Part shown: piece after piece, positions 4,012 to 14,357 of the stretch
Layout of the letters: each line of letters opens with the position of its first letter
How positions within the stretch are numbered: position 1 is the stretch's first letter
The notes under the pieces: generated by a model
Told to the model about the DNA's origin: nothing
Database searches by the model: none
What the model saw: the letters and a program-made list of their open reading frames with translations, nothing else
Made by a program: the position numbers and the translations under genes
Source of the DNA: Thalassospira sp. MCCC 1A03138
GTDB lineage: Bacteria > Pseudomonadota > Alphaproteobacteria > Rhodospirillales > Thalassospiraceae
Length of the DNA: 64,000 nt
NCBI RefSeq assembly: GCF_002115785.1
Contig: NZ_JFJY01000006.1
Location: 1 to 64,000 of the forward strand
Direction: 5' to 3'

Positions 4012-5514
4012 CTAGCCCCCTGCATTCGAGTTACTTTCGTTCGTCTTGGTACGAATAAATGCCAAATCAACCGGCACATAGTCCGGACCGCTAAAAAGCT
4101 TTTTGCCGGTCAAGGCCCCCGGCCAGCTTTGGGGATCGGATTTCCAGACGGTGCCATCGGGCATTGGGACTTCAAGCGGATCACAGAAACCCTCGGCATA
4201 TTCGGACACCAATTCCAGGTCACCACAAATACCCGCCTTGAATATCGGCCCAGCTGCCGGCCGTGGATTGCTCAGCACACCGGGCCAGGCATCAAATATT
4301 GCGGGATAAGTCGCGTGATTGCACACATCACCGGAAAACCGCACACCGCGATCTTCATCCCTGCCAAGATCAAGTTCGCCAGTAGGACCAAACAATGTCT
4401 GATCAAGCGGCATCAGGTTGATGGGCAAAGTCGCCGGATTGGCATACCCAATGGCATTACGCCGGTTTTGCCAGATCCTGGTTGCGCCCTTTTTGACGTA
4501 TTTCTGACGCAGGAAGAAGCTGTTGTGAAAGCATTCAAAAGGCATGCTTGGCTGCGCATGACTTGACTTGCCGAATTTGAAAACGGCACCACCGTTGTTT
4601 TCATCACCCTCCGGCCCCGGGCGGCTATCAAACCAGCCGCGATTGCCGAAATAATACCAGTACCCGCCAGCCAGATTATCCTGCGAGAAAAGCTTATGAC
4701 AGTTATAGAACTGGTTATAGGCCACCCACCAGCCCACGGCAGTTGCTTCGGGTTCAATCGGATTGTCGCGCACGAAACTGAATCGGTTATCAATGATGCG
4801 GACGTTGCGGTTAAAACTGCCGATCGGCTTTTGCAGATTGGTCGCCGATACATCCATTCGAACGGCGTTATAGCAGTGGCGCACATCGTTTCCACGGATT
4901 ACGATATCGCCCGCAATGTCATCCGCCCCAAAAAATGCACCGTTCAGGTATCGATATGGTGCTTCCTTGCCCGGTGTAATTTCGCCGTCATGGATCATCG
5001 CCCAGTCAAGGTACCGCCAGATCACATCATCCTGAATCCAGTCGCAATTTTCGATGATGATGCGTGATGTGTGCTCGCCTGTCGCATAAAAGGCATATGT
5101 TCCACCACGGATTTGCATGTTTTTGAATATCAGCTCACTGCTGTCGCGGATATAGACAGCACTCGGCCATGCGCGTTCGATACGGATATTATCAAGACGA
5201 ATATGGCACTTTCCGACAATGCGAAATGCCGCATATTTGGCACATCCGGGATCGGTTGCCGAAACTTCGGGATCAGGCGGACGGCGACCGTCAAGAATGG
5301 CACCATATTCACCGCGAATAATGATCGGCTGATCTTCAAGGCCGCTGATTGGGATATCGACCGGCTCAGGCAGAAAGTAATTCCCCGGCATCAAACGGAT
5401 CAGATCCCCGGGGGCACAATTGGCAACCGCATTATGAAGCGTTGCGGTTTCCCGCCAAGCAGAATCGACCCAATGACGCCCGCCATCCGGCGTGACATAA
5501 ACCATCCTGAGCAT
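4012..5514 (-). CDS. Right-handed beta-helix (pectate-lyase-like) protein, 500 aa
   Basis: The sequence opens MLRMVYVTPDGGRHW and soon shows the PADR1-like entry of beta-helix proteins: LHNAVANCAPGDLIRLMPGNY, then PIIIRGEYGAILDG. Repeated short beta-strand turns follow (HIRLDNIRIERAWPSAVYIRD, RIIIENCDWIQ, DIVIRGNDVRHCYNAV), as in polysaccharide lyases and other parallel beta-helices. No signal peptide is visible, so it is either cytosolic or exported by an unusual route. AAGGGG sits 9 bases before the chosen ATG. No carbohydrate genes adjoin it and the substrate is unknown. Confidence 0.7.
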   Translation of the reverse strand: MLRMVYVTPDGGRHWVDSAWRETATLHNAVANCAPGDLIRLMPGNYFLPEPVDIPISGLEDQPIIIRGEYGAILDGRRPPDPEVSATDPGCAKYAAFRIVGKCHIRLDNIRIERAWPSAVYIRDSSELIFKNMQIRGGTYAFYATGEHTSRIIIENCDWIQDDVIWRYLDWAMIHDGEITPGKEAPYRYLNGAFFGADDIAGDIVIRGNDVRHCYNAVRMDVSATNLQKPIGSFNRNVRIIDNRFSFVRDNPIEPEATAVGWWVAYNQFYNCHKLFSQDNLAGGYWYYFGNRGWFDSRPGPEGDENNGGAVFKFGKSSHAQPSMPFECFHNSFFLRQKYVKKGATRIWQNRRNAIGYANPATLPINLMPLDQTLFGPTGELDLGRDEDRGVRFSGDVCNHATYPAIFDAWPGVLSNPRPAAGPIFKAGICGDLELVSEYAEGFCDPLEVPMPDGTVWKSDPQSWPGALTGKKLFSGPDYVPVDLAFIRTKTNESNSNAGG

Positions 5515-5622
5515 TTCATGTTCCCCTTGTTACCCCGATGCCCGATTAGATTTTATTGCTGGGCTTGTGTTTTATCAGACGTCACGCCATATCTGTCGCT
5601 GTTTCACTGCTGCCGGACCAAT

Positions 5623-6066
5623 ATGAACCAACCACCAAGCCAAGCCGCAAAGGCAATAGATCATCGTGATCGTAGTCAATCCCTACCGGGTTTGTTGCGC
5701 CATGCTGCATTTTGCCTGATTGCTTGCGCGCTTATCCTGTTTGGTGGCGGCACATCCGTTACTGACACGCCAATTTCCGACGGGTCGACTTTCCCCTATC
5801 CATTTAATACCGTCAATCATGATAGCGGCCCGTCGCAGGCGGTCCTTCCGGTGGCACCGGTTCGTGCGACTGCCGGTCCCCGCCAAACCCCGGACGATTT
5901 ACCAGGCCATAAGCCAACCTTCCCCGATGATGTCGTTATTGTACCGTCGGTCACACAGCATACAGCTGCCCAACGGGCAAAATCCATCTTTGTGGCACGT
6001 GCGGTCGCCACTCATGGCGCTGAAATTCTTCCATTTTCCCCGCGCGCTCCGCCCTTTCGGGTCTGA
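5623..6066 (+). CDS. Small single-span membrane protein upstream of SecDF, unknown
   Basis: This 147-residue protein begins MNQPPSQAAKAIDHRD. It has one hydrophobic helix (about residues 26-46, LLRHAAFCLIACALILFGGG) followed by a Pro-rich, probably periplasmic tail with no recognised domain. The frame is open far upstream over the antisense of the beta-helix gene, but ATG 5623 gives a plausible membrane protein. It ends 115 bases before the SecDF start. Position and topology suggest a partner of that SecDF, which is inference only. The family was not recognised. Confidence 0.5.
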   Translation: MNQPPSQAAKAIDHRDRSQSLPGLLRHAAFCLIACALILFGGGTSVTDTPISDGSTFPYPFNTVNHDSGPSQAVLPVAPVRATAGPRQTPDDLPGHKPTFPDDVVIVPSVTQHTAAQRAKSIFVARAVATHGAEILPFSPRAPPFRV

Positions 6067-6181
6067 TTTCTCCTACTCATAATCGCGGCACGATATGCGC
6101 CGTGTTTCCAGAAATATCAGATGACAGCATAACCGGGTATCAGGTTGGCCCGGTCTGACTGCTGTGCGGAGTTTATTTTTC

Positions 6182-8755
6182 ATGCGTACATCAAGATGGC
6201 GCGTGGTTGTCTATAGCCTTGTCCTTCTGACAGGTTTTCTGACAGCCCTGCCAAACCTTTTCACCCCGGCTCAGCTTGCAGACTGGCCCTCATTTTTACC
6301 AACACGCCAGATTGCCCTTGGCCTTGATCTGCGCGGTGGATCGCACCTTGTGCTTGAAATCGATACTGCGGCAATGATCGCCGAACGCCTTGAAATAACA
6401 CGCGATGATGTCACAAACGCCCTTCGCAAAGCCAATGTCGACACCAACAGCATTCAGATCAGTAATGGTCAGGTGATTGTAACCCTGCCTGACGCCAAGG
6501 ATCACGACGCTGCCCTTGAAACCTTAAAAGACCTTACCAATGCGCAGGTTGATACACCGCGACACGGATCGACAGCGGAATTTGTCATTACCGCGCCATC
6601 CGATAACAGCATCCATATCGCACTTAGCGAACAGGGCATTCGCAACCGGGTCGACGCCAGCGCCCAGCAAAGCCTTGAGATCATTCGAAGCCGTATCGAC
6701 CAGATCGGCGTATCGGAACCAACGATCCAGCGGATTGGCAGTGATCGTGTTATGGTTCAGTTGCCCGGCATTCCGGACCCGTCACAGGTCCGAAAACTTC
6801 TGGGCAGCACTGCAAAGCTTGGCTTCTATATGCTCGCAGATCGCAGCGGGACCGATAAACGCGATAGCAGTGTACGAACACTGCAGGACAAGGAGGGTCA
6901 AAGCTATCGCTTGCATCGTACTCCAGCCCTTTCGGGCGACCATCTGACAGATGCCCATGCCGGATTTGATCCGCAAAGCCATCAACCAGTTGTCAATTTC
7001 CGGTTTGATACGGCCGGTGCGGCAAAGTTCGCCGATATCACACGTGCCAATGTTGGAAAACCCTTTGCCATTGTTCTGGACAACGAAGTCCTTAGCGCAC
7101 CAGTCATCCGGGAAGCGATAACCGGTGGTTCAGGTCAGATCAGCGGCAGCTTTACGGTTGGTGAAACGGTAACACTTTCTGCACTTCTTCGTGCCGGGTC
7201 CCTGCCCGCACCAATGACCGTGATCGAAGAACGGACCGTCGGCCCCGACCTTGGTGCAGATGCCATCGAAATGGGCCTTTATACCGGCTTGATCGGTTTG
7301 GCTCTGGTAACCGGACTGATGTTTTTGCTTTATGGCCGCTGGGGGCTTATCGCCAATCTGGCATTGGGGCTTAACGTCATACTGACATTTGGTGCGCTTG
7401 GTCTTATGGGGGCAACGTTGACCCTGCCCGGTATTGCAGGGATTGTTTTGGGGATCGGGCTTGCAGTTGATGCCAACGTTCTGATCAACGAACGTATCAG
7501 GGAAGAAACCAAAAGGGGCCTTTCGGCCTTCATGGCGCTCGATTCCGGGTTCAAGCGTGCTTATGCCACGATTGTTGATTCCAACATAACAACCCTCATC
7601 GCAACCGCCCTTTTGTTTGAGTTCGGGTCCGGCCCGGTGCGTGGTTTTGCCATCACCATGGGTCTTGGCATCGTGATTTCGATGTTTACCGCGGTTGCCG
7701 TGGTTCGGGTCATCATGACCGAAATCGTCTGGCGCACCCGTATGAAAAAGCTCGTCATTGAACCGCTTTGGCGTTTCATGCCCGAAAAAACCAGCATTTC
7801 TTTCATGCGGGCACGTTTTCTCGGCATCGGAATGTCGCTTTTGCTGTCTGCTATTTCAATCGGATTGTTCTTCAAACCCGGTCTTGATTACGGGGTTGAT
7901 TTCAAGGGCGGCATTCAGGTTGAAGTTGTCAGTGGCAGTGCGAATGACGGTAACAGCCCGCTTGACCTTGGAGCCTTTCGGCAGGAACTTTCGACATTGG
8001 GGCTTGGCGATGTCAGCCTTCAGGATATCGGCAAGGATGGCCATATCCTGATCCGGGTTGAACGTCAGCCGGGCGGCGAACAGGCACAGACAGCAGCCGT
8101 CGAGACAGTTAAGAAAGCCGTGCAATCAATTGATCCGGCAGCAGATTTTGAACGCACAGAAGTCGTTGGTCCCAAAGTCAGCGGTGAATTGGCCCAATCT
8201 GGTGTCAGCGCTGTTATCTTCGCAAGCCTCGCGATGCTGGGCTATATCTGGTGGCGGTTTGAATGGCCATTTGCCGTTGGCGCGATTGTGACATTGATCC
8301 TTGATGTGACCAAGACCATCGGCTTTTTCGCGATTATGGGGCTCGACTTCAACCTGACGGCCATTGCAGCCCTGCTCACCCTGATCGGCTATTCGATCAA
8401 TGATAAGGTGGTGGTTTATGACCGGATGCGCGAAAACCTGAGGCTTTATCGAAAAATGCCGATGCGCGAAATCATCGACATGTCGATCAACCAGTCGCTT
8501 GCCCGGTGCCTTTTCACATCTCTGACAACCCTTTTTGCGATGGTGCCAATGGCGATCTGGGGCGGGTCTGCCGTTGAAAGTTTTGCCGTTCCGATGGTGT
8601 TCGGCGTTGTGATTGCCACGACATCGTCGATCTATATCGCGGCACCAATCCTGCTGTTCCTCGACACATGGCGACAAAAACAACGCCAGAAGCATGCGCG
8701 ACTGGCATCAGAAACCGACATTGATGACAATCCCCTGATAAAGGCATCCAGTTAA
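6182..8755 (+). CDS. secDF: Fused SecDF protein-export subunit
   Basis: A single 857-residue chain contains SecD followed by SecF, the proton-driven membrane proteins that pull preproteins out of the SecYEG channel on the periplasmic side. The SecD half shows LGLDLRGGSHLVLEID near its first helix, the P1 periplasmic domain, and the TM4 motif GIGLAVDANVLINERIREE with the key Asp. The SecF half shows GLDYGVDFKGG and LIGYSINDKVVVYDRMREN with the conserved Asp/Arg pair, so the proton path looks intact. ATG 6182 has CGGAG 10 bases upstream; a GTG at 6164 is possible. Alphaproteobacteria usually carry separate secD and secF beside yajC. This fused copy next to a Ni/Co importer is therefore probably a second one. 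Confidence 0.9.
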   Translation: MRTSRWRVVVYSLVLLTGFLTALPNLFTPAQLADWPSFLPTRQIALGLDLRGGSHLVLEIDTAAMIAERLEITRDDVTNALRKANVDTNSIQISNGQVIVTLPDAKDHDAALETLKDLTNAQVDTPRHGSTAEFVITAPSDNSIHIALSEQGIRNRVDASAQQSLEIIRSRIDQIGVSEPTIQRIGSDRVMVQLPGIPDPSQVRKLLGSTAKLGFYMLADRSGTDKRDSSVRTLQDKEGQSYRLHRTPALSGDHLTDAHAGFDPQSHQPVVNFRFDTAGAAKFADITRANVGKPFAIVLDNEVLSAPVIREAITGGSGQISGSFTVGETVTLSALLRAGSLPAPMTVIEERTVGPDLGADAIEMGLYTGLIGLALVTGLMFLLYGRWGLIANLALGLNVILTFGALGLMGATLTLPGIAGIVLGIGLAVDANVLINERIREETKRGLSAFMALDSGFKRAYATIVDSNITTLIATALLFEFGSGPVRGFAITMGLGIVISMFTAVAVVRVIMTEIVWRTRMKKLVIEPLWRFMPEKTSISFMRARFLGIGMSLLLSAISIGLFFKPGLDYGVDFKGGIQVEVVSGSANDGNSPLDLGAFRQELSTLGLGDVSLQDIGKDGHILIRVERQPGGEQAQTAAVETVKKAVQSIDPAADFERTEVVGPKVSGELAQSGVSAVIFASLAMLGYIWWRFEWPFAVGAIVTLILDVTKTIGFFAIMGLDFNLTAIAALLTLIGYSINDKVVVYDRMRENLRLYRKMPMREIIDMSINQSLARCLFTSLTTLFAMVPMAIWGGSAVESFAVPMVFGVVIATTSSIYIAAPILLFLDTWRQKQRQKHARLASETDIDDNPLIKASS

Positions 8756-8771
8756 CAAGACCATATGACCA

Positions 8772-8804
8772 TATCGAAACCGGCTTTCATCGCCGGTTTC
8801 GATA
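8772..8804 (+). terminator. 13-bp perfect hairpin after secDF
   Basis: TATCGAAACCGGC and GCCGGTTTCGATA pair perfectly around a 7-base loop, 17 bases after the secDF stop. No T-tract follows, so it may be a processing or stability hairpin, or a weak terminator. Confidence 0.55.
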
Positions 8805-8816
8805 AACCCCAGATAA

Positions 8817-8844
8817 TCATACGTTTTAAAATATTTTATGAAAC
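8817..8844. promoter_or_regulatory. Candidate nickel/cobalt regulator site 1
   Basis: TCATAC, 14 bases, then TATGAAAC. The same element with the same spacing recurs at 9732-9759 before cbiM. The inner TCATA/TATGA halves form an inverted repeat. It lies about 80 bases before the DUF4198 gene, next to a TTGACC that could be a -35 box. A second dyad, TGAAAC-N5-GTTTCA, overlaps its right end (8839-8855). Confidence 0.55.
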
Positions 8845-8921
8845 ATCTTGTTTCAATGGATTGACCCGGAAAATCGGTCAGCATAGGGTACGGCATCATT
8901 CCAGTTTCACAGGACAGAAAG

Positions 8922-9707
8922 ATGTCGATTCCTTTCCGGTTTATCGTGACCGCGGGCTTTTCATTTGGGTTGCTGATCAGTGCCCAGCATGCTGCACAGG
9001 CCCACTTCCAGAAGATGATCCCGTCAACCAACGTGGTCACCCAGGAAACCGGTCGCGATATCGAGGTTGACCTGACCTTTACCCACCCAATGACCAATGG
9101 CCCGGCTATGGAAATGGCCCGCCCGGTTCAATTTGGCATCCATACCAAAGGCAATAAAACCGATCTTGGCGACAGTCTGGTGGCAAAGACGGTCGATGGC
9201 AAAGCTGCGTTTGACGCAACAATCAGCATTGATCGTCCGGGCGGATATGCGCTTTATGTCGAACCGGTTCCCTATTTCGAACCATCCGAGGGTAAATACA
9301 TCATCCAGTACACCAAAACGATCATTGATGCGTTTGGTGCGGGCGAAGAATGGGATCAGATGGTCGGCTTCCCGGTCGAGATAGAGCCCCTGACGCGCCC
9401 CTATGGCATCTGGACCGGCAATGTCTTTAGCGGGATCGTCCGACACAATGGTGAACCGGTACCGTTTGCCGAGGTCGAGGTTGAATATGCCAATGACGGC
9501 AGTATCACGCTGCCGAATGACAGTTTTTCTACACAGGTCATCAAAGCTGACGGCAATGGTGTTTTCACCTATGCCATGCCACGTGATGGTTGGTGGGCGT
9601 TTGCCGCCTTGGTCGAAGATGGCACGATGACGGCCCCAGGATCGGATGATCAGGTCCCAGTCGAACGCGGCGGTGTTATCTGGGTCAAAACCGACCCAAT
9701 GGACTGA
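8922..9707 (+). CDS. DUF4198 periplasmic protein of a Ni/Co importer (NikK-like)
   Basis: A Sec signal peptide (about residues 1-27, ending AHAAQA) leads to a mature protein beginning AHFQKMIP. A His at the new N-terminus is a hallmark of DUF4198/NikK proteins, which capture Ni2+ or Co2+ for ECF importers. The body is beta-rich with an Ig-like C-terminal part (GEPVPFAEVEVEYAND) and ends GGVIWVKTDPMD. At 261 residues it has the normal family length. It is first in the cluster DUF4198-cbiM-nikL-cbiQ-cbiO. A 206-base gap with a conserved operator-like element separates it from cbiM, so it may be expressed separately. Confidence 0.8.
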   Translation: MSIPFRFIVTAGFSFGLLISAQHAAQAHFQKMIPSTNVVTQETGRDIEVDLTFTHPMTNGPAMEMARPVQFGIHTKGNKTDLGDSLVAKTVDGKAAFDATISIDRPGGYALYVEPVPYFEPSEGKYIIQYTKTIIDAFGAGEEWDQMVGFPVEIEPLTRPYGIWTGNVFSGIVRHNGEPVPFAEVEVEYANDGSITLPNDSFSTQVIKADGNGVFTYAMPRDGWWAFAALVEDGTMTAPGSDDQVPVERGGVIWVKTDPMD

Positions 9708-9731
9708 CGTTCGAGCAACACGTCAGGCCTG

Positions 9732-9759
9732 TCATACTTATTTGTAAAAAATATGAAAC
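9732..9759. promoter_or_regulatory. Candidate nickel/cobalt regulator site 2
   Basis: TCATAC, 14 bases, TATGAAAC: the second exact copy of the element at 8817-8844, here upstream of cbiM. Fourteen bases are identical at identical spacing. The half-site letters resemble those of NikR operators (GTATGA/TCATAC) but in swapped order, so the regulator is unidentified. Confidence 0.55.
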
Positions 9760-9872
9760 CTGCTTGACTTCGCGACTGCGAAATCGCTACGCTTTTCAGG
9801 CAGGTTTCATCGCCTGTCTGCCCCACCGGAATAAAATCAATGCGCCGTTCCATCCGTTTTCAGACCTGCCTG
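9753..9872 (+). other. cbiM leader with mutually exclusive stems
   Basis: ATGAAACCTGC (9753-9763) is perfectly complementary to GCAGGTTTCAT (9800-9810), enclosing a small TTCGC-GACT-GCGAA hairpin. CAGGCAGGT (9797-9805) is perfectly complementary to ACCTGCCTG (9864-9872). The two pairings share bases 9800-9805 and cannot form together. CAGGC can also pair with GCCTG directly downstream. This could be an attenuator or riboswitch-like leader. The AGACCTGCC piece recalls a cobalamin-riboswitch B12 box, but the rest of that core is not seen. Confidence 0.4.
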
Positions 9873-9913
9873 TAAGCTGGTGGATTGCAAATGCACTTTA
9901 CAGGGATTAGACC

Positions 9914-10537
9914 ATGCACATCGTCGACGGAGCCCTATCGAGTGAAGTCGTTGTCACTGGCGCGGTTCTGGCTGTCGCCGGCATCGGTTACGGGCTTCGC
10001 AAAATCGATATTGATGCGATGCCCCGCGTGGCAATGATGAGTGCCGTCTTCTTCGTTGCCTCCCTGCTCCATGTTCCCGTCGGGCCAAGCAGTGCGCATC
10101 TGATCGTCAATGGCTTGGCAGGTTTGATGCTGGGCTGGGCTGTTTTCCCGGCAATATTCATCGGACTGTTATTGCAGGCCGTTTTCTTTGGTTTCGGCGG
10201 TATCACCGTTCTGGGTGTAAATACAATCAACATCGCCCTGCCTGCGGTTTTGATGTGGTGGCTGGTTTCACCATTTCTGGCACGTGCGGAAGGTAAATCG
10301 ATCTTGCTGGCAGGTTTTGTCGCCGGGTCCGGTGCCATTGCCCTTTCAAGCATAATGGTTGGCCTGTCACTTGCAGCCAGCGGGCAGGAATTTGTTCCGA
10401 CGGCAAAGCTTGTCGTCATGAGCCACATCCCGGTCATGGTGGTTGAAGGTATCCTGACCGCAGCAGCCGTTCATCTCGTCAAAAAAGTCCGTCCGGTCAT
10501 GCTGGCACCCGCCGGTTCGCTTCGAAGTGTTGGCTGA
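9914..10537 (+). CDS. cbiM: Ni/Co ECF importer substrate-specific membrane subunit CbiM
   Basis: This 207-residue membrane protein starts MHIVDGALSSE. The N-terminal Met-His is the metal ligand defining CbiM/NikM S-components. PVGPSSAHLIVNGLAGLMLGW is a family hallmark, with inner His residues that complete the metal site. About six helices follow. It captures Ni2+ or Co2+ and delivers it to the cytoplasm with CbiQ and CbiO. nikL starts 3 bases after its stop, so the genes are co-translated. Metal choice between Ni and Co cannot be read from this sequence. Confidence 0.92.
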   Translation: MHIVDGALSSEVVVTGAVLAVAGIGYGLRKIDIDAMPRVAMMSAVFFVASLLHVPVGPSSAHLIVNGLAGLMLGWAVFPAIFIGLLLQAVFFGFGGITVLGVNTINIALPAVLMWWLVSPFLARAEGKSILLAGFVAGSGAIALSSIMVGLSLAASGQEFVPTAKLVVMSHIPVMVVEGILTAAAVHLVKKVRPVMLAPAGSLRSVG

Positions 10538-10540
10538 TCG

Positions 10541-11209
10541 ATGCCCCGATTTCCCGCTTTATATGCAATTGCTGTTCTAATCGGCACGCTGTTCATATTC
10601 GTCAATGCCCAGGCACACAGCCTGCATGTTTTTGCGATGGGAAACGGCGACGTCATCGACGGCTATGCCTATTTCGGAGGTGGTGCCCGGCCGCATGATG
10701 CGGAAATCCAGCTTCTCGATGATACAGGTCGCGTTATTTTTGCCGGAAAGACCGATGATCAGGGTGAATTCAAACTTCGCGTCAGTCACCGGCAAGATTA
10801 TGTCATCGAAGCCAATTCCGGTGATGGCCATATCGCCAGCTTTAAAATCAATGGTGATGAGCTTTCCGTTCAATTGCCGTCAGGTAGCGAAGACATCAAT
10901 ATTTATGTCAGCCAGATTGACACGGCGTCATCTTTCCAAAGCGGCCCCCCCCCCTCCTCATCGACAACCGTTGCCACGGCCACTTCTGACGCGATGGTCA
11001 CCCTTTCGCGGGACGAGTTGGACAACCTGATTGATGCGGCTGTATCCCGTCATGTTCGACCCTTGCGAGAACAGCTGGTTGCCTATGAGGACAAAGTCCG
11101 ATTTTCCGATCTTCTGGGTGGGATTGGTGTCATCATTGGAATATTCGGGGCCTTTGCATGGTTCAGGGCCGGACAATCACGCCCCGATCAGCAGAATGAA
11201 AAAACATGA
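10541..11209 (+). CDS. NikL/CbiL-like accessory protein of the Ni/Co importer
   Basis: 222 residues. A signal peptide ends NAQA, and the mature N-terminus is HSLHVFAMG, again starting with metal-binding histidines. A carboxypeptidase-regulatory-like beta-sandwich follows (DAEIQLLDDTGRVIFAGKTDDQGEFKLRV). A Ser/Pro/Thr-rich linker is encoded partly by a run of ten C. A C-terminal helix (LLGGIGVIIGIFGAFAWF) anchors it in the membrane. This matches NikL/CbiL proteins, which replace NikN in some ECF metal importers. The stop overlaps the cbiQ start by 4 bases. Confidence 0.75.
   Translation: MPRFPALYAIAVLIGTLFIFVNAQAHSLHVFAMGNGDVIDGYAYFGGGARPHDAEIQLLDDTGRVIFAGKTDDQGEFKLRVSHRQDYVIEANSGDGHIASFKINGDELSVQLPSGSEDINIYVSQIDTASSFQSGPPPSSSTTVATATSDAMVTLSRDELDNLIDAAVSRHVRPLREQLVAYEDKVRFSDLLGGIGVIIGIFGAFAWFRAGQSRPDQQNEKT
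10945..10954 (+). repeat. Ten-base poly-C tract inside nikL
   Basis: Ten consecutive C encode the start of the Pro/Ser linker (GGC CCC CCC CCC TCC). Slippage by one base would shift the frame and remove the C-terminal membrane anchor. Confidence 0.9.
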
Positions 11210-11982
11210 TCGGGGCGACAAATGTCCTTGTACCATTACGATCCAATTCAGTTCTGTCACGGATTGATCCGCGCTGTCGTTTGCTGGCAGCTCTCGCGCT
11301 GATCGTAACAGCCGTCAGTTTTTCAAGCTGGCAACCATTGGCAATGCTGGTTCTGGTCGCTGCGATCATTACCGGCTTTGCCAAGCCAGACTGGTCCAGA
11401 ACACTTAAAATGGTTTTGACCATGGATGGCTTCATCTTTGTGATGCTGATCATGTTGCCCTTTACCGTGTCCGGTGATGTGATATTCACCCTTTGGGGTT
11501 TTGACGCCAGCTATCAGGGACTGTTTCAGGCCGTGTTGATCGCGCTTAAGGCAAATGCTGCGATCCTTGTTCTGATTGCACTGGTGGGCGGAATGGATGC
11601 AATCCTTCTGGGGCGGGGTTTGCAGGGGATATACGTTCCGGCAAAGCTGGTGACGCTTTTCATGTTTACCATTCGCTATATCGATCTTTTGCGGCGAGAA
11701 TATCTGCGCCTGCGTGTTGCCATGCGGGCACGCGCCTTTGTCGCGCGCAACAATCGTCATAGCTGGCGCAGTTTTGGATATTTGCTGGGGATGCTGCTGG
11801 TGCGTGGCCATGATCGTTCGGAACGCATTCTTTGGGCTATGAAATGTCGTGCCTATCACGGTCATATGCATTTTGGCTCCCTGCCCCGATTAAGCACTCA
11901 GGATTATCTGTTTGCGACGGCGGTCATTCTTTTCATCGGTACTTTGATCGGGCTGGAGGTCGCATGTCCGGCGCTGATCTGA
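11206..11982 (+). CDS. cbiQ: ECF importer transmembrane subunit CbiQ
   Basis: 258 residues with several helices. The sequence has the ECF T-component pattern: N-terminal LSRIDPRCRLLAALALIV, and near the C-terminus the coupling segment RVAMRARAF followed by RILWAMKCRAYHG, corresponding to the paired Ala-Arg-Gly-like motifs that contact the ATPase. CbiQ links CbiM to the CbiO ATPase. The ATG overlaps the nikL stop (ATGA) and the 3' end overlaps cbiO by 19 bases, so translation is coupled. Confidence 0.9.
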   Translation: MIGATNVLVPLRSNSVLSRIDPRCRLLAALALIVTAVSFSSWQPLAMLVLVAAIITGFAKPDWSRTLKMVLTMDGFIFVMLIMLPFTVSGDVIFTLWGFDASYQGLFQAVLIALKANAAILVLIALVGGMDAILLGRGLQGIYVPAKLVTLFMFTIRYIDLLRREYLRLRVAMRARAFVARNNRHSWRSFGYLLGMLLVRGHDRSERILWAMKCRAYHGHMHFGSLPRLSTQDYLFATAVILFIGTLIGLEVACPALI

Positions 11983-12623
11983 TCACAGCCAAAAACCTGC
12001 ATTTCACCTTTTCCAGCGGGCGCAAGGTATTGAATGGTGTCAACCTGTCCCTGCGCACTGGTGAAAGACTGGCACTGCTGGGCGCAAATGGTGCCGGTAA
12101 AAGCAGCCTTTTGCATTGTTTGATGGGGTTAGCCCCCGCCAGTAGCGGTGAAATCACCATTCTTGGATCCAGATGTGAAACAGAAGCAGAATTCCGCGCC
12201 ATTCGTGGTCGGGTCGGATTACTGTTTCAGGATTCCGATGATCAGCTTTTCTGCCCGACGGTTCTTGAAGACGTGATGTTTGGCTCGCTCAACCTTGGTC
12301 AATCACGCGAAGATGCGCGAAAAATTGCCTTGCAAACGCTGTCGGATCTGGGTCTGGACGGATTTGAAAACCGGATCACCTATCAGCTTTCCGGTGGTGA
12401 AAAGCGACTGGTGGCGCTTGCGACCGTGCTAGCGATGTCGCCCGAAATTCTGCTGCTTGACGAACCAACCAACGGGCTTGATGCCGATGTCGAAAAACGT
12501 CTGATCGAAATTCTGCGGTCCCTGCCGCAGGCAATGCTGATCATTTCACATGATCGGCTGTTTCTTGATCAGGTCGCGACGCGTTCAGTCCGCCTTCAGG
12601 ACGGCGTCATATCCCAAGCCTGA
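11964..12623 (+). CDS. cbiO: ECF importer ATPase CbiO
   Basis: 219-residue ABC ATPase. Walker A is GANGAGKSS, the Q-loop lies at LLFQDSDDQLFCPTVLEDVMFG (the ECF-specific form), the signature is LSGGEKRL, Walker B is ILLLDEPTNGLD and the switch His is in IISHDRLF. All catalytic residues are present. I chose ATG 11964 because GGAGGT precedes it inside cbiQ; the longer open frame is only the cbiQ overlap. It is the last gene of the Ni/Co operon. With CbiM and CbiQ it forms the complete importer, and no nickel enzyme genes lie nearby. Confidence 0.93.
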   Translation: MSGADLITAKNLHFTFSSGRKVLNGVNLSLRTGERLALLGANGAGKSSLLHCLMGLAPASSGEITILGSRCETEAEFRAIRGRVGLLFQDSDDQLFCPTVLEDVMFGSLNLGQSREDARKIALQTLSDLGLDGFENRITYQLSGGEKRLVALATVLAMSPEILLLDEPTNGLDADVEKRLIEILRSLPQAMLIISHDRLFLDQVATRSVRLQDGVISQA

Positions 12624-12682
12624 CTTGCTGGCGCCTGCATGCTCGCCTATGCTGCGCCAACATCAAAAAACGGGAAGCCCTC

Positions 12683-13225
12683 ATGAAACCTGAATCCATC
12701 CTCGTTTTCTGGTTCAAGGAACTAGAACCCAAACAATGGTTTGAAAAAGATATCACGCTTGATCGTCATATCACTGAACGCTTTGCCGATTTTCATGCTG
12801 CCGCGGCAGCCGGGGAGCTATATGGCTGGCGAAAAACCGCACATGGCCGACTAGCAGAAATCATCATTCTGGATCAGTTTTCACGCAATATCTATCGCGA
12901 CAAATCCGGTGCGTTTGCCTGCGATACGATGGCACTTGTTCTGGCCCAGGAAGCCGTTGCCCAGGGGTTTGACATGAAATTAACCAAACCCGCCGAAAAA
13001 TGCTTTCTCTATATGCCTTATATGCATTCGGAGTCAGAAGCGAGCCACGAAGTTGCACTAAAGCTGTTTGACCAGCCGGGTCTGGAAAACAATCACGACT
13101 ATGAAATCAGGCACAAACAGATCATTGATCGTTTTGGGCGTTACCCCCATCGCAATGCCATCCTTGGCCGGGAATCCACTCCCGAAGAAACAGCGTTCCT
13201 GAAGGAACCGAATTCTTCGTTCTGA
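12683..13225 (+). CDS. DUF924 family protein
   Basis: 180 residues with the DUF924 signature: ILVFWFKELEPKQWFEKD at the N-terminus, LAEIIILDQFSRNIYRD in the middle, EKCFLYMPYMHSE and GRYPHRNAILGRESTPEE near the end. The fold is helical and TPR-like; its biochemical role is not established. It is soluble with no signal peptide. It follows cbiO by 59 bases on the same strand, so it may be read through, but its family is not tied to metal uptake. A terminator follows. Confidence 0.88.
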   Translation: MKPESILVFWFKELEPKQWFEKDITLDRHITERFADFHAAAAAGELYGWRKTAHGRLAEIIILDQFSRNIYRDKSGAFACDTMALVLAQEAVAQGFDMKLTKPAEKCFLYMPYMHSESEASHEVALKLFDQPGLENNHDYEIRHKQIIDRFGRYPHRNAILGRESTPEETAFLKEPNSSF

Positions 13226-13230
13226 ACATC

Positions 13231-13262
13231 AAAAAGGGGATGGCGTCGACCATCCCTTTTGT
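13231..13262 (+). terminator. Rho-independent terminator
   Basis: AAAAGGGGATGG pairs with CCATCCCTTTT around CGTCGA, followed by GTGTTTT. It closes the DUF924 gene and possibly the Ni/Co operon. Confidence 0.85.
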
Positions 13263-13292
13263 GTTTTGATTTTCACCTGCAGGCCGTCACGG

Positions 13293-14357
13293 TTACCCGA
13301 TCTTGCGATCGCGCTTCTCCCACCAGCCTTCGACCAATGCCTCAGCCTCGTCCATGTAGTCGGCTTTACCGGCTAGGAACGCGCCCATTGCTGCACTGCC
13401 TTTGATGCGCGCGATGGCAGCACTGTCTTCGACCTCGCCACGCCAGACGGCCAGAAAATGCTGCAAGGTCACCGGGCTGTTATCTTCGTCGTCCTTCTCG
13501 GTCCGTGCCAGAAGAGCGGGCCAGCGAACATCGCTAAGCTCGCCATTATCAAGCATACGCAGATCAACATGCTTAAACGGTGTACGTTCCGCCTCGCCGC
13601 CACCGCCCTTGATTACACCAATACGCGGCAATTCCAGAAGCTTGCCGGTTTCCCGGTGGACATCAAGAAACGCCGGATGGAATACACCAAGAAACGCCGC
13701 ACGTGCCTGTAACGGATTAAGCAGACGCAGCAGAGTATTGACCGGACTGCGAAGGCCCAGCAACGGTCGCAAACCAATCAATTCCTGAAGTTTCGGGTGA
13801 ATATGGCGCAACGGCAAATAGGCAAAGCCCTTGGATGCGATATCGGAACGTGCTTCATCTGCAGACATTGCCAGCGGCAGCTTCAGGGCCTTGACTGCGG
13901 ACTCAGTCCCGACGCCGTTGGTCAGATGCGAGTTATAACCATGCATCAGAACCGGTATGCCATTGCGCGACAGCAACATCGCCGACAGCACGAACCACGG
14001 CAAGCCACGCGAACGCCCTGCTGCATAGGATGGCCAATCCAGCATTGGATGGCATTTTTCCGGAACCAGGCTTTCGTCATCAAGTTCAAGACGGGCAGCC
14101 TTGCGCACGGCTTCGATCATGCCAGCCAGTTCATCGGGCGTTTCCGCCCGATAACGCAGCATCAAAAGAAACGCGCCCAACTGGATCGGCTCAACCTCGT
14201 CACGCAGGATCATTGAAAAGGCGTCAAATGCCTCTTCACGCGTCAGGCTGCGTGAACGCCCCGGCCCACGGAAAAAGGTCCGCAGATATCCGGAAAACGG
14301 ATGAGATTCCGGCAGATGATTGTCATCTTCAAGCTGCTCGAGATGATCGTCGGTCAT
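13293..14357 (-). CDS. ybiB: YbiB/TrpD2-type anthranilate phosphoribosyltransferase-like nucleic-acid-binding protein
   Basis: 354 residues resembling the phosphoribosyltransferase fold of TrpD but without a trp context. Features are LTREEAFDAFSMILRDEVEPIQLGAFLLMLRYRAETPDELAGM (N-terminal helical domain), PWFVLSAMLLSRNGIPVLMHGYNSH, and the Gly-rich VIKGGGGEAERTP. E. coli YbiB/TrpD2 proteins have lost enzyme activity and bind nucleic acid, with a role in the LexA response; this is family knowledge. It lies 21 bases downstream of yaaA on the same strand, so the two stress-linked genes likely form an operon. Confidence 0.82.
   Translation of the reverse strand: MTDDHLEQLEDDNHLPESHPFSGYLRTFFRGPGRSRSLTREEAFDAFSMILRDEVEPIQLGAFLLMLRYRAETPDELAGMIEAVRKAARLELDDESLVPEKCHPMLDWPSYAAGRSRGLPWFVLSAMLLSRNGIPVLMHGYNSHLTNGVGTESAVKALKLPLAMSADEARSDIASKGFAYLPLRHIHPKLQELIGLRPLLGLRSPVNTLLRLLNPLQARAAFLGVFHPAFLDVHRETGKLLELPRIGVIKGGGGEAERTPFKHVDLRMLDNGELSDVRWPALLARTEKDDEDNSPVTLQHFLAVWRGEVEDSAAIARIKGSAAMGAFLAGKADYMDEAEALVEGWWEKRDRKIG

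Follow-up and report, generated by a model that had tools for sequence, protein, structure and literature searches.

The NikR operator of E. coli reads GTATGA-N16-TCATAC, with its two half-sites facing inward (PMC7055735). In delta-proteobacteria, reversed NikR sites with N13 have been predicted upstream of nikMLKQO and another cluster in Desulfotalea psychrophila and upstream of nikK in Desulfovibrio vulgaris, with the signal GTAACAC-N13-GTGTTAC; delta-type sites have N13 in both orientations (PMC545781). In Helicobacter pylori, NikR activates when it binds 5' of the polymerase site and represses when it covers the -10/-35 region (PMC4464171). The nickel ECF transporter NikKMLQO, from whose descriptions we took the name nikK, is encoded by the K, M, L, Q and O genes (PMC2667541, PMC545781). 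A search of the open-licence literature, with subscription journals mostly outside its scope, found no other reports of everted NikR sites. Reversed NikR sites are already known as a prediction; what is new in the locus described here is the letters of the sites, the presence of two sites per locus and a repeated distance to the promoter.

The locus lies in a 64,000-nucleotide stretch of the Thalassospira sp. MCCC 1A03138 genome (the window), where the K, M, L, Q and O genes are found together, as in a NikKMLQO ECF transporter, with putative metal specificity. Unlike the described transporter, nikK and nikMLQO appear here under separate promoters, each with its own site: one element lies between secDF and nikK, and the other between nikK and nikM. 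No regulator gene was found among the open reading frames (ORFs) identified around the importer locus. The features, by window position, are:

8817..8841, no strand assigned: candidate NikR-type site in everted form at the nikK promoter, reading TCATAC-N13-TTATGA; the longer N14 form ends at 8844
8861..8889, + strand: likely nikK promoter, TTGACC-N17-TAGGGT, separated from the upstream site by 19 bp, with comparable boxes in relatives and a predicted start
8922..9707, + strand: nikK, periplasmic component of the Ni/Co ECF importer (DUF4198, PF10670)
9732..9756, no strand assigned: candidate NikR-type site in everted form at the nikM promoter, reading TCATAC-N13-ATATGA; the longer N14 form ends at 9759
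9764..9793, + strand: likely nikM promoter, TTGACT-N18-TACGCT, separated from the upstream site by 7 bp
9914..10537, + strand: nikM, substrate-specific membrane component (CbiM, PF01891)
10541..11209, + strand: nikL, NikL family Ni/Co ECF subunit (NF058648, 160 bits against a cut-off of 100)
11206..11982, + strand: nikQ (CbiQ, PF02361/TIGR02454)
11964..12623, + strand: nikO, importer ATPase (ABC_tran, PF00005), its start chosen within a longer ORF

A run of ten C inside nikL (10945-10954) is a possible slippage spot.

The original prediction was built on an identical sequence before both Ni/Co importer units, and TCATAC-N14-TATGAAAC is indeed exact at both 8817-8844 and 9732-9759. The left half TCATAC is exact in the two sites, while the right half matches at 5/6 positions (TTATGA and ATATGA) and lacks the G in both. 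Comparison with relatives gave the core of the element as TCATAC-N13-nTATGA, with N14 in one genome and the perfect palindrome TCATAC-N13-GTATGA in some relatives. The trailing AAC is not kept among relatives.

The same prediction held that fourteen fixed bases were unlikely to recur by chance. Within the window, the 14-base form at up to three mismatches occurred 9 times, whereas shuffled sequence gave 3.4 on average and 8 at most; the two elements were the only perfect copies. The proposed genome scan, at up to two mismatches, gave 21 matches, and the only perfect ones were the two window copies; with two perfect matches, the idea that this genome has a broad regulon built on the 14-base form was rejected. 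Some 14-base two-part word common to both regions (166 and 206 bp) arose in 4 of 300 first-order Markov resamples. The pair is therefore suggestive, moderately surprising by itself and not decisive, and it is conservation that decides.

By-eye inspection revealed no inward partner sites beside the two window elements, and the N16 inward pattern, at up to two mismatches in this genome, occurred at near-control numbers (63 against 45 control per strand) and was uninformative. A riboswitch at the elements was rejected, as an Rfam scan of positions 5500-14000 returned one chance match (E 0.61). An inverted repeat with 15-nt arms, 93% complementary (9753-9767 and 9796-9810), starts within the right half-site, its arms enclosing the nikM promoter. 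Similar repeats and leader hairpins, in other letters, are seen in relatives. A TTTCA/ATCA word is kept about 8-10 bases 3' of the right half-site in nikK promoters (window 8842-8860) and is absent from nikM promoters.

Across the genus, we fetched 30 NikK loci and took as nickel-type those nikK genes with over 60% identity, leaving out of the count 10 distant copies (37-42% identity). An everted-form site was present upstream of all 20 nickel-type nikK genes (19 genomes), one with N14 and one with TCACAC, and in 10/10 of the named Thalassospira nikK contigs. The ten top-ranking named relatives of the window NikK all come from Thalassospira contigs. The second site, between nikK and nikM, was found in 11 of the 12 genomes whose fetched locus includes nikM. 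The exception is G025, where nikK is duplicated: nikM lies directly 3' of the additional nikK copy, which itself has the second site upstream. The left half of five of the eleven nikM sites ends differently or fits worse (TCATAA in four). The half-sites stay while the spacers and flanks diverge, in the 20 nikK upstream regions as in the 11 nikK-nikM gaps. Column counts over the 25 distinct sites are partly set by the collecting expression, and we rest conservation on the raw site list instead. Thus, the element is conserved beyond this genome and, as originally claimed, is real and tied to nickel uptake. Two of the eight exact everted sites of the genus lie away from nickel genes. Among the distant nikK copies of other Thalassospira, the two that were scanned are preceded by cobalamin riboswitches (L091 1093-1285 and L098 2447-2639), and the genus appears to run cobalt-type and nickel-type nikK copies under different controls.

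The observation that no nikR gene lies here stood for the neighborhood and failed for the genome, where nikR is located distant from the importer locus (G000 C1:381420-381644). The gene is present in 29/29 genus genomes; consequently, nikR loss offers no comparison within the genus. The NikR protein passes the NF002815 model (185 bits, cut-off 83) and falls short of TIGR02793 (159 vs 175). Among solved structures it is closest to the NikR chains 1q5v and 2hzv, which align over residues 1-133, with the strand MTRVTVSI opposite MQRVTITL. At 159 aa versus 133 in the solved chain 1q5v, the protein has a histidine-rich C-terminal extension. This nikR, which is not in the window, is oriented divergently to a second pair of nikK-like and nikL-like genes, and the stretch separating them holds an inward GTATGA-N15-TCATAC (G000 C1, L010 7325-9230).

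Exact copies of this inward sequence were found in 15/29 genus genomes, against 0 for the backward control, and by place they lie at nikR (9 genomes), upstream of nikA (TIGR02294; 4), upstream of the HupE/UreJ gene hupE (1) and at an unassigned position (1). Allowing up to one mismatch, the nikR upstream regions carried an inward site in 17/29 genomes and an everted site in 0/29. As the exact inward operators at nikR, nikA and hupE carry GTATGA, this appears to be the NikR-type half-site of the genus, with the same letters as the everted elements. The half-sites were originally described as NikR letters in swapped order, which agrees with these inward operators. In the window elements the half-sites point outward, N13 apart, which departs from the inward N15/N16 of a canonical NikR operator; their centers, counted as 7-bp half-sites, are 20 bp apart, within the canonical 20-21 bp. 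The window elements combine NikR half-sites in outward orientation with N13, a place upstream of nickel-uptake genes and nikR in the genome.

Outside the genus, we surveyed 317 genomes of the order, of which 84 carry nikR and 96 have a NikK match, and took upstream DNA for every NikK match outside Thalassospira that had E below 1e-70 (46 in all), excluding weaker and partial matches. Among the nikR-positive nikK promoters, an inward operator was present in 11/12 at up to two mismatches, 7/12 at up to one and 5/12 exactly, compared with 0/34 of the nikR-negative promoters at any of these levels (Fisher 9e-10 at up to two mismatches, 1.5e-5 at up to one). In four of the twelve (G095, G099, G236 and G237), a divergent nikR shares the DNA upstream of nikK. 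Of the unlinked cases G106 is the cleanest, having an exact inward operator with nikK and nikR on different contigs. Another four of the twelve have a weak right half (TATTAC); upstream of NikK, four nikR-positive genomes of one family (L314, L316, L319 and L329) read GTATGA-N15-TATTAC, an inward site whose right half is altered alike. Around 57 nikR genes from 55 non-genus genomes, half-site pairs with up to one mismatch were inward N15 in 20 cases, inward N16 in 9 and outward N13 in 2. Together with the contrast between nikR-positive and nikR-negative promoters, these spacings suggest that nikK is a NikR-type target in this order. None of the 46 non-genus nikK promoters carried an everted site. 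Thus, relative to other genera, Thalassospira carries the predicted NikR-type operator of nikK with its half-sites reversed.

Exact everted sites are rare elsewhere. G130, which belongs to a different family of the order, has one between nikR and the gene for a NicO nickel permease just behind it (L207 439-2043); the site overlaps the core promoter of the NicO gene and fills its -35/-10 spacer. The everted site upstream of nikR in G200 is doubtful, as its GTATGA also pairs with a downstream TCACAC. Of the 288 genomes in the order outside Thalassospira, 13 had exact everted sites and 7 had the backward control. In the class, they occurred in 11/385 genomes against 19/385 for the backward control, and the idea that everted sites are common in Alphaproteobacteria was rejected; none of 12 everted loci from the class had a match to Nik proteins or NikR alongside.

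The delta-proteobacterial reversed signal (PMC545781, Table 4), itself a prediction, shares with the Thalassospira sites the outward orientation, N13, a position upstream of nikK or a nik operon and a nikR gene in the genome. The letters differ, as the window sites read TCATAC-N13-(G)TATGA, the letters of the genus's own inward operators, and not GTAACAC/GTGTTAC. Also unlike that signal, Thalassospira has two sites per transporter locus and a repeated promoter distance. We scanned 59 distant NikK promoters, drawn from 80 NikK loci after excluding alphaproteobacterial or other nearer loci and one that was too short. With delta-type letters at up to two mismatches, both orientations peaked at N13 (4 outward and 6 inward loci), compared with at most 1 outward and 2 inward loci at other spacings. 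This spacing profile was used because the motif at up to three mismatches was noisy (13 control loci vs 10 inward loci). The Desulfobulbus/Desulfogranum nikK promoters (L132, L162 and L166) carry two imperfect delta-type sites together, one everted and one inward, with starts 53-54 bp apart.

Judging from sequence comparison, the two elements are very probably operators of the nickel-responsive ribbon-helix-helix regulator NikR in an inside-out form. Their GTATGA half-sites face away from each other across 13 bases, instead of facing each other across 15-16. Each NikR DNA-binding domain is a two-fold-symmetric dimer with the ribbon-helix-helix fold; because of this symmetry, a half-site can be turned in place, and on geometric grounds the dimer may take it in either direction, provided that the distance between centers is kept. 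Counted as 7-bp half-sites, the inward N15 and everted N13 forms both leave N13 between the halves and 20 bp between centers, and the inward N16 and everted N14 variants both have 21 bp between centers. The E. coli operator (PMC7055735) shares the half-site letters, the 20-21 bp between 7-bp half-site centers and the nickel-import targets; its half-sites face inward, in contrast to the Thalassospira elements, which face outward and lie upstream of the -35 box. Nickel-loaded NikR would sit upstream of the nikK and nikMLQO -35 boxes and tune nickel import to supply. In support of this highly likely identification we count nikR in every genus genome, the likeness of its product to solved NikR chains, the conservation of the everted form, the inward GTATGA operators, the nikK operators that go with nikR, the G130 site, the reversal in delta-proteobacteria and the equal spacing. 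Against it, while leaving it the strongly favored reading, we count the lack of an everted site at non-genus nikK promoters, the rarity of everted sites elsewhere, the four shared stretches and four weak right halves among twelve, the purely inward sites of the nikR promoters, the two exact genus sites away from nickel genes, the G lacking from the right half of both window sites and the presence of nikR throughout the genus, which leaves no loss to compare.

If NikR is the regulator, repression of the importer is somewhat likelier than activation. For repression, NikR would block contacts of RNA polymerase with AT-rich upstream DNA. A serious though less likely alternative is that NikR activates nikK and nikMLQO, its everted sites being held in constant phase upstream of -35 and recruiting RNA polymerase, and represses from inward sites over -10/-35. 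Consistent with activation, the element lies wholly upstream of the TTGAC box in 24 distinct promoters, at 19 bp (10), 18 bp (8) or 7 bp (6), and never over it. Arithmetic from the -10 box would place element centers at roughly -67/-66 or -56, positions that differ by about one helical turn. In contrast, the genus's inward sites overlap the -10 of nikA and the core promoter of nikK2. H. pylori NikR activates from upstream and represses over -10/-35; its ureA site resembles the Thalassospira elements in lying upstream of the polymerase site with two half-sites, and differs from them in having seven-base half-sites eleven apart, other letters and urease as the activated target (PMC4464171). Nevertheless, an importer switched on by its own metal would be unexpected, as the known importers covered by PMC7055735 and PMC4464171 are repressed, and the G130 everted site overlaps a core promoter. 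Moreover, the starts are predicted positions, the fixed distances may reflect shared ancestry, and the promoter table leaves out, for want of an assigned TTGAC box, the nikK sites of seven genomes (L078-L080 and L082-L085; eight further nikK loci) and no nikM site. More tentatively still, one NikR might use two operator syntaxes: inward sites over the core promoter (nikA, nikR/nikKL2) would repress, while outward sites upstream of -35 (-67 or -56), in fixed helical phase, would touch RNA polymerase and either activate nikK and nikMLQO or tune them. Whether nickel control is positive or negative would then be written in the orientation and phase of the half-sites.

The sites could instead serve another sensor of nickel or cobalt, such as a Fur-type or MerR-type protein, their likeness to NikR half-sites being convergence; we consider this improbable. 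We know of no NikR structure on everted DNA, and the everted order differs from that of the characterized E. coli operator (PMC7055735). Against such a sensor, the half-sites have the same letters as the inward operators that the genus carries at nikR and nikA, nikK promoters are NikR-type targets elsewhere in the order, NikR-linked reversal recurs in G130 and, with other letters, in delta-proteobacteria, and the ORFs identified around the locus include no regulator gene. The new nickel/cobalt sensor suggested in the original prediction is thus unlikely, given nikR in every genus genome, the shared half-site, the inward nikK operators that outside the genus occur only in nikR-positive genomes and the earlier prediction of N13 reversal (PMC545781). 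Chance, or a by-product of AT-rich promoter DNA, is hardly credible even with an AT-rich spacer and the 4/300 resamples sharing a 14-base word, as the half-sites persist while the spacers and flanks of 20 nikK regions and 11 nikK-nikM gaps diverge.

The sites of nikK promoters thus point inward in other genera and outward in Thalassospira. Because the half-site letters are the same in both orientations, either-direction reading by a symmetric dimer becomes testable with one protein and two natural operators. Within the open-licence literature, the earlier record of reversed NikR sites is a prediction from one paper, in delta-proteobacteria (PMC545781), and motif scans that assume one orientation miss operators. 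The Thalassospira importer would also be a naturally occurring system in which to ask whether a metal sensor activates or represses according to the position and phase of its operator.
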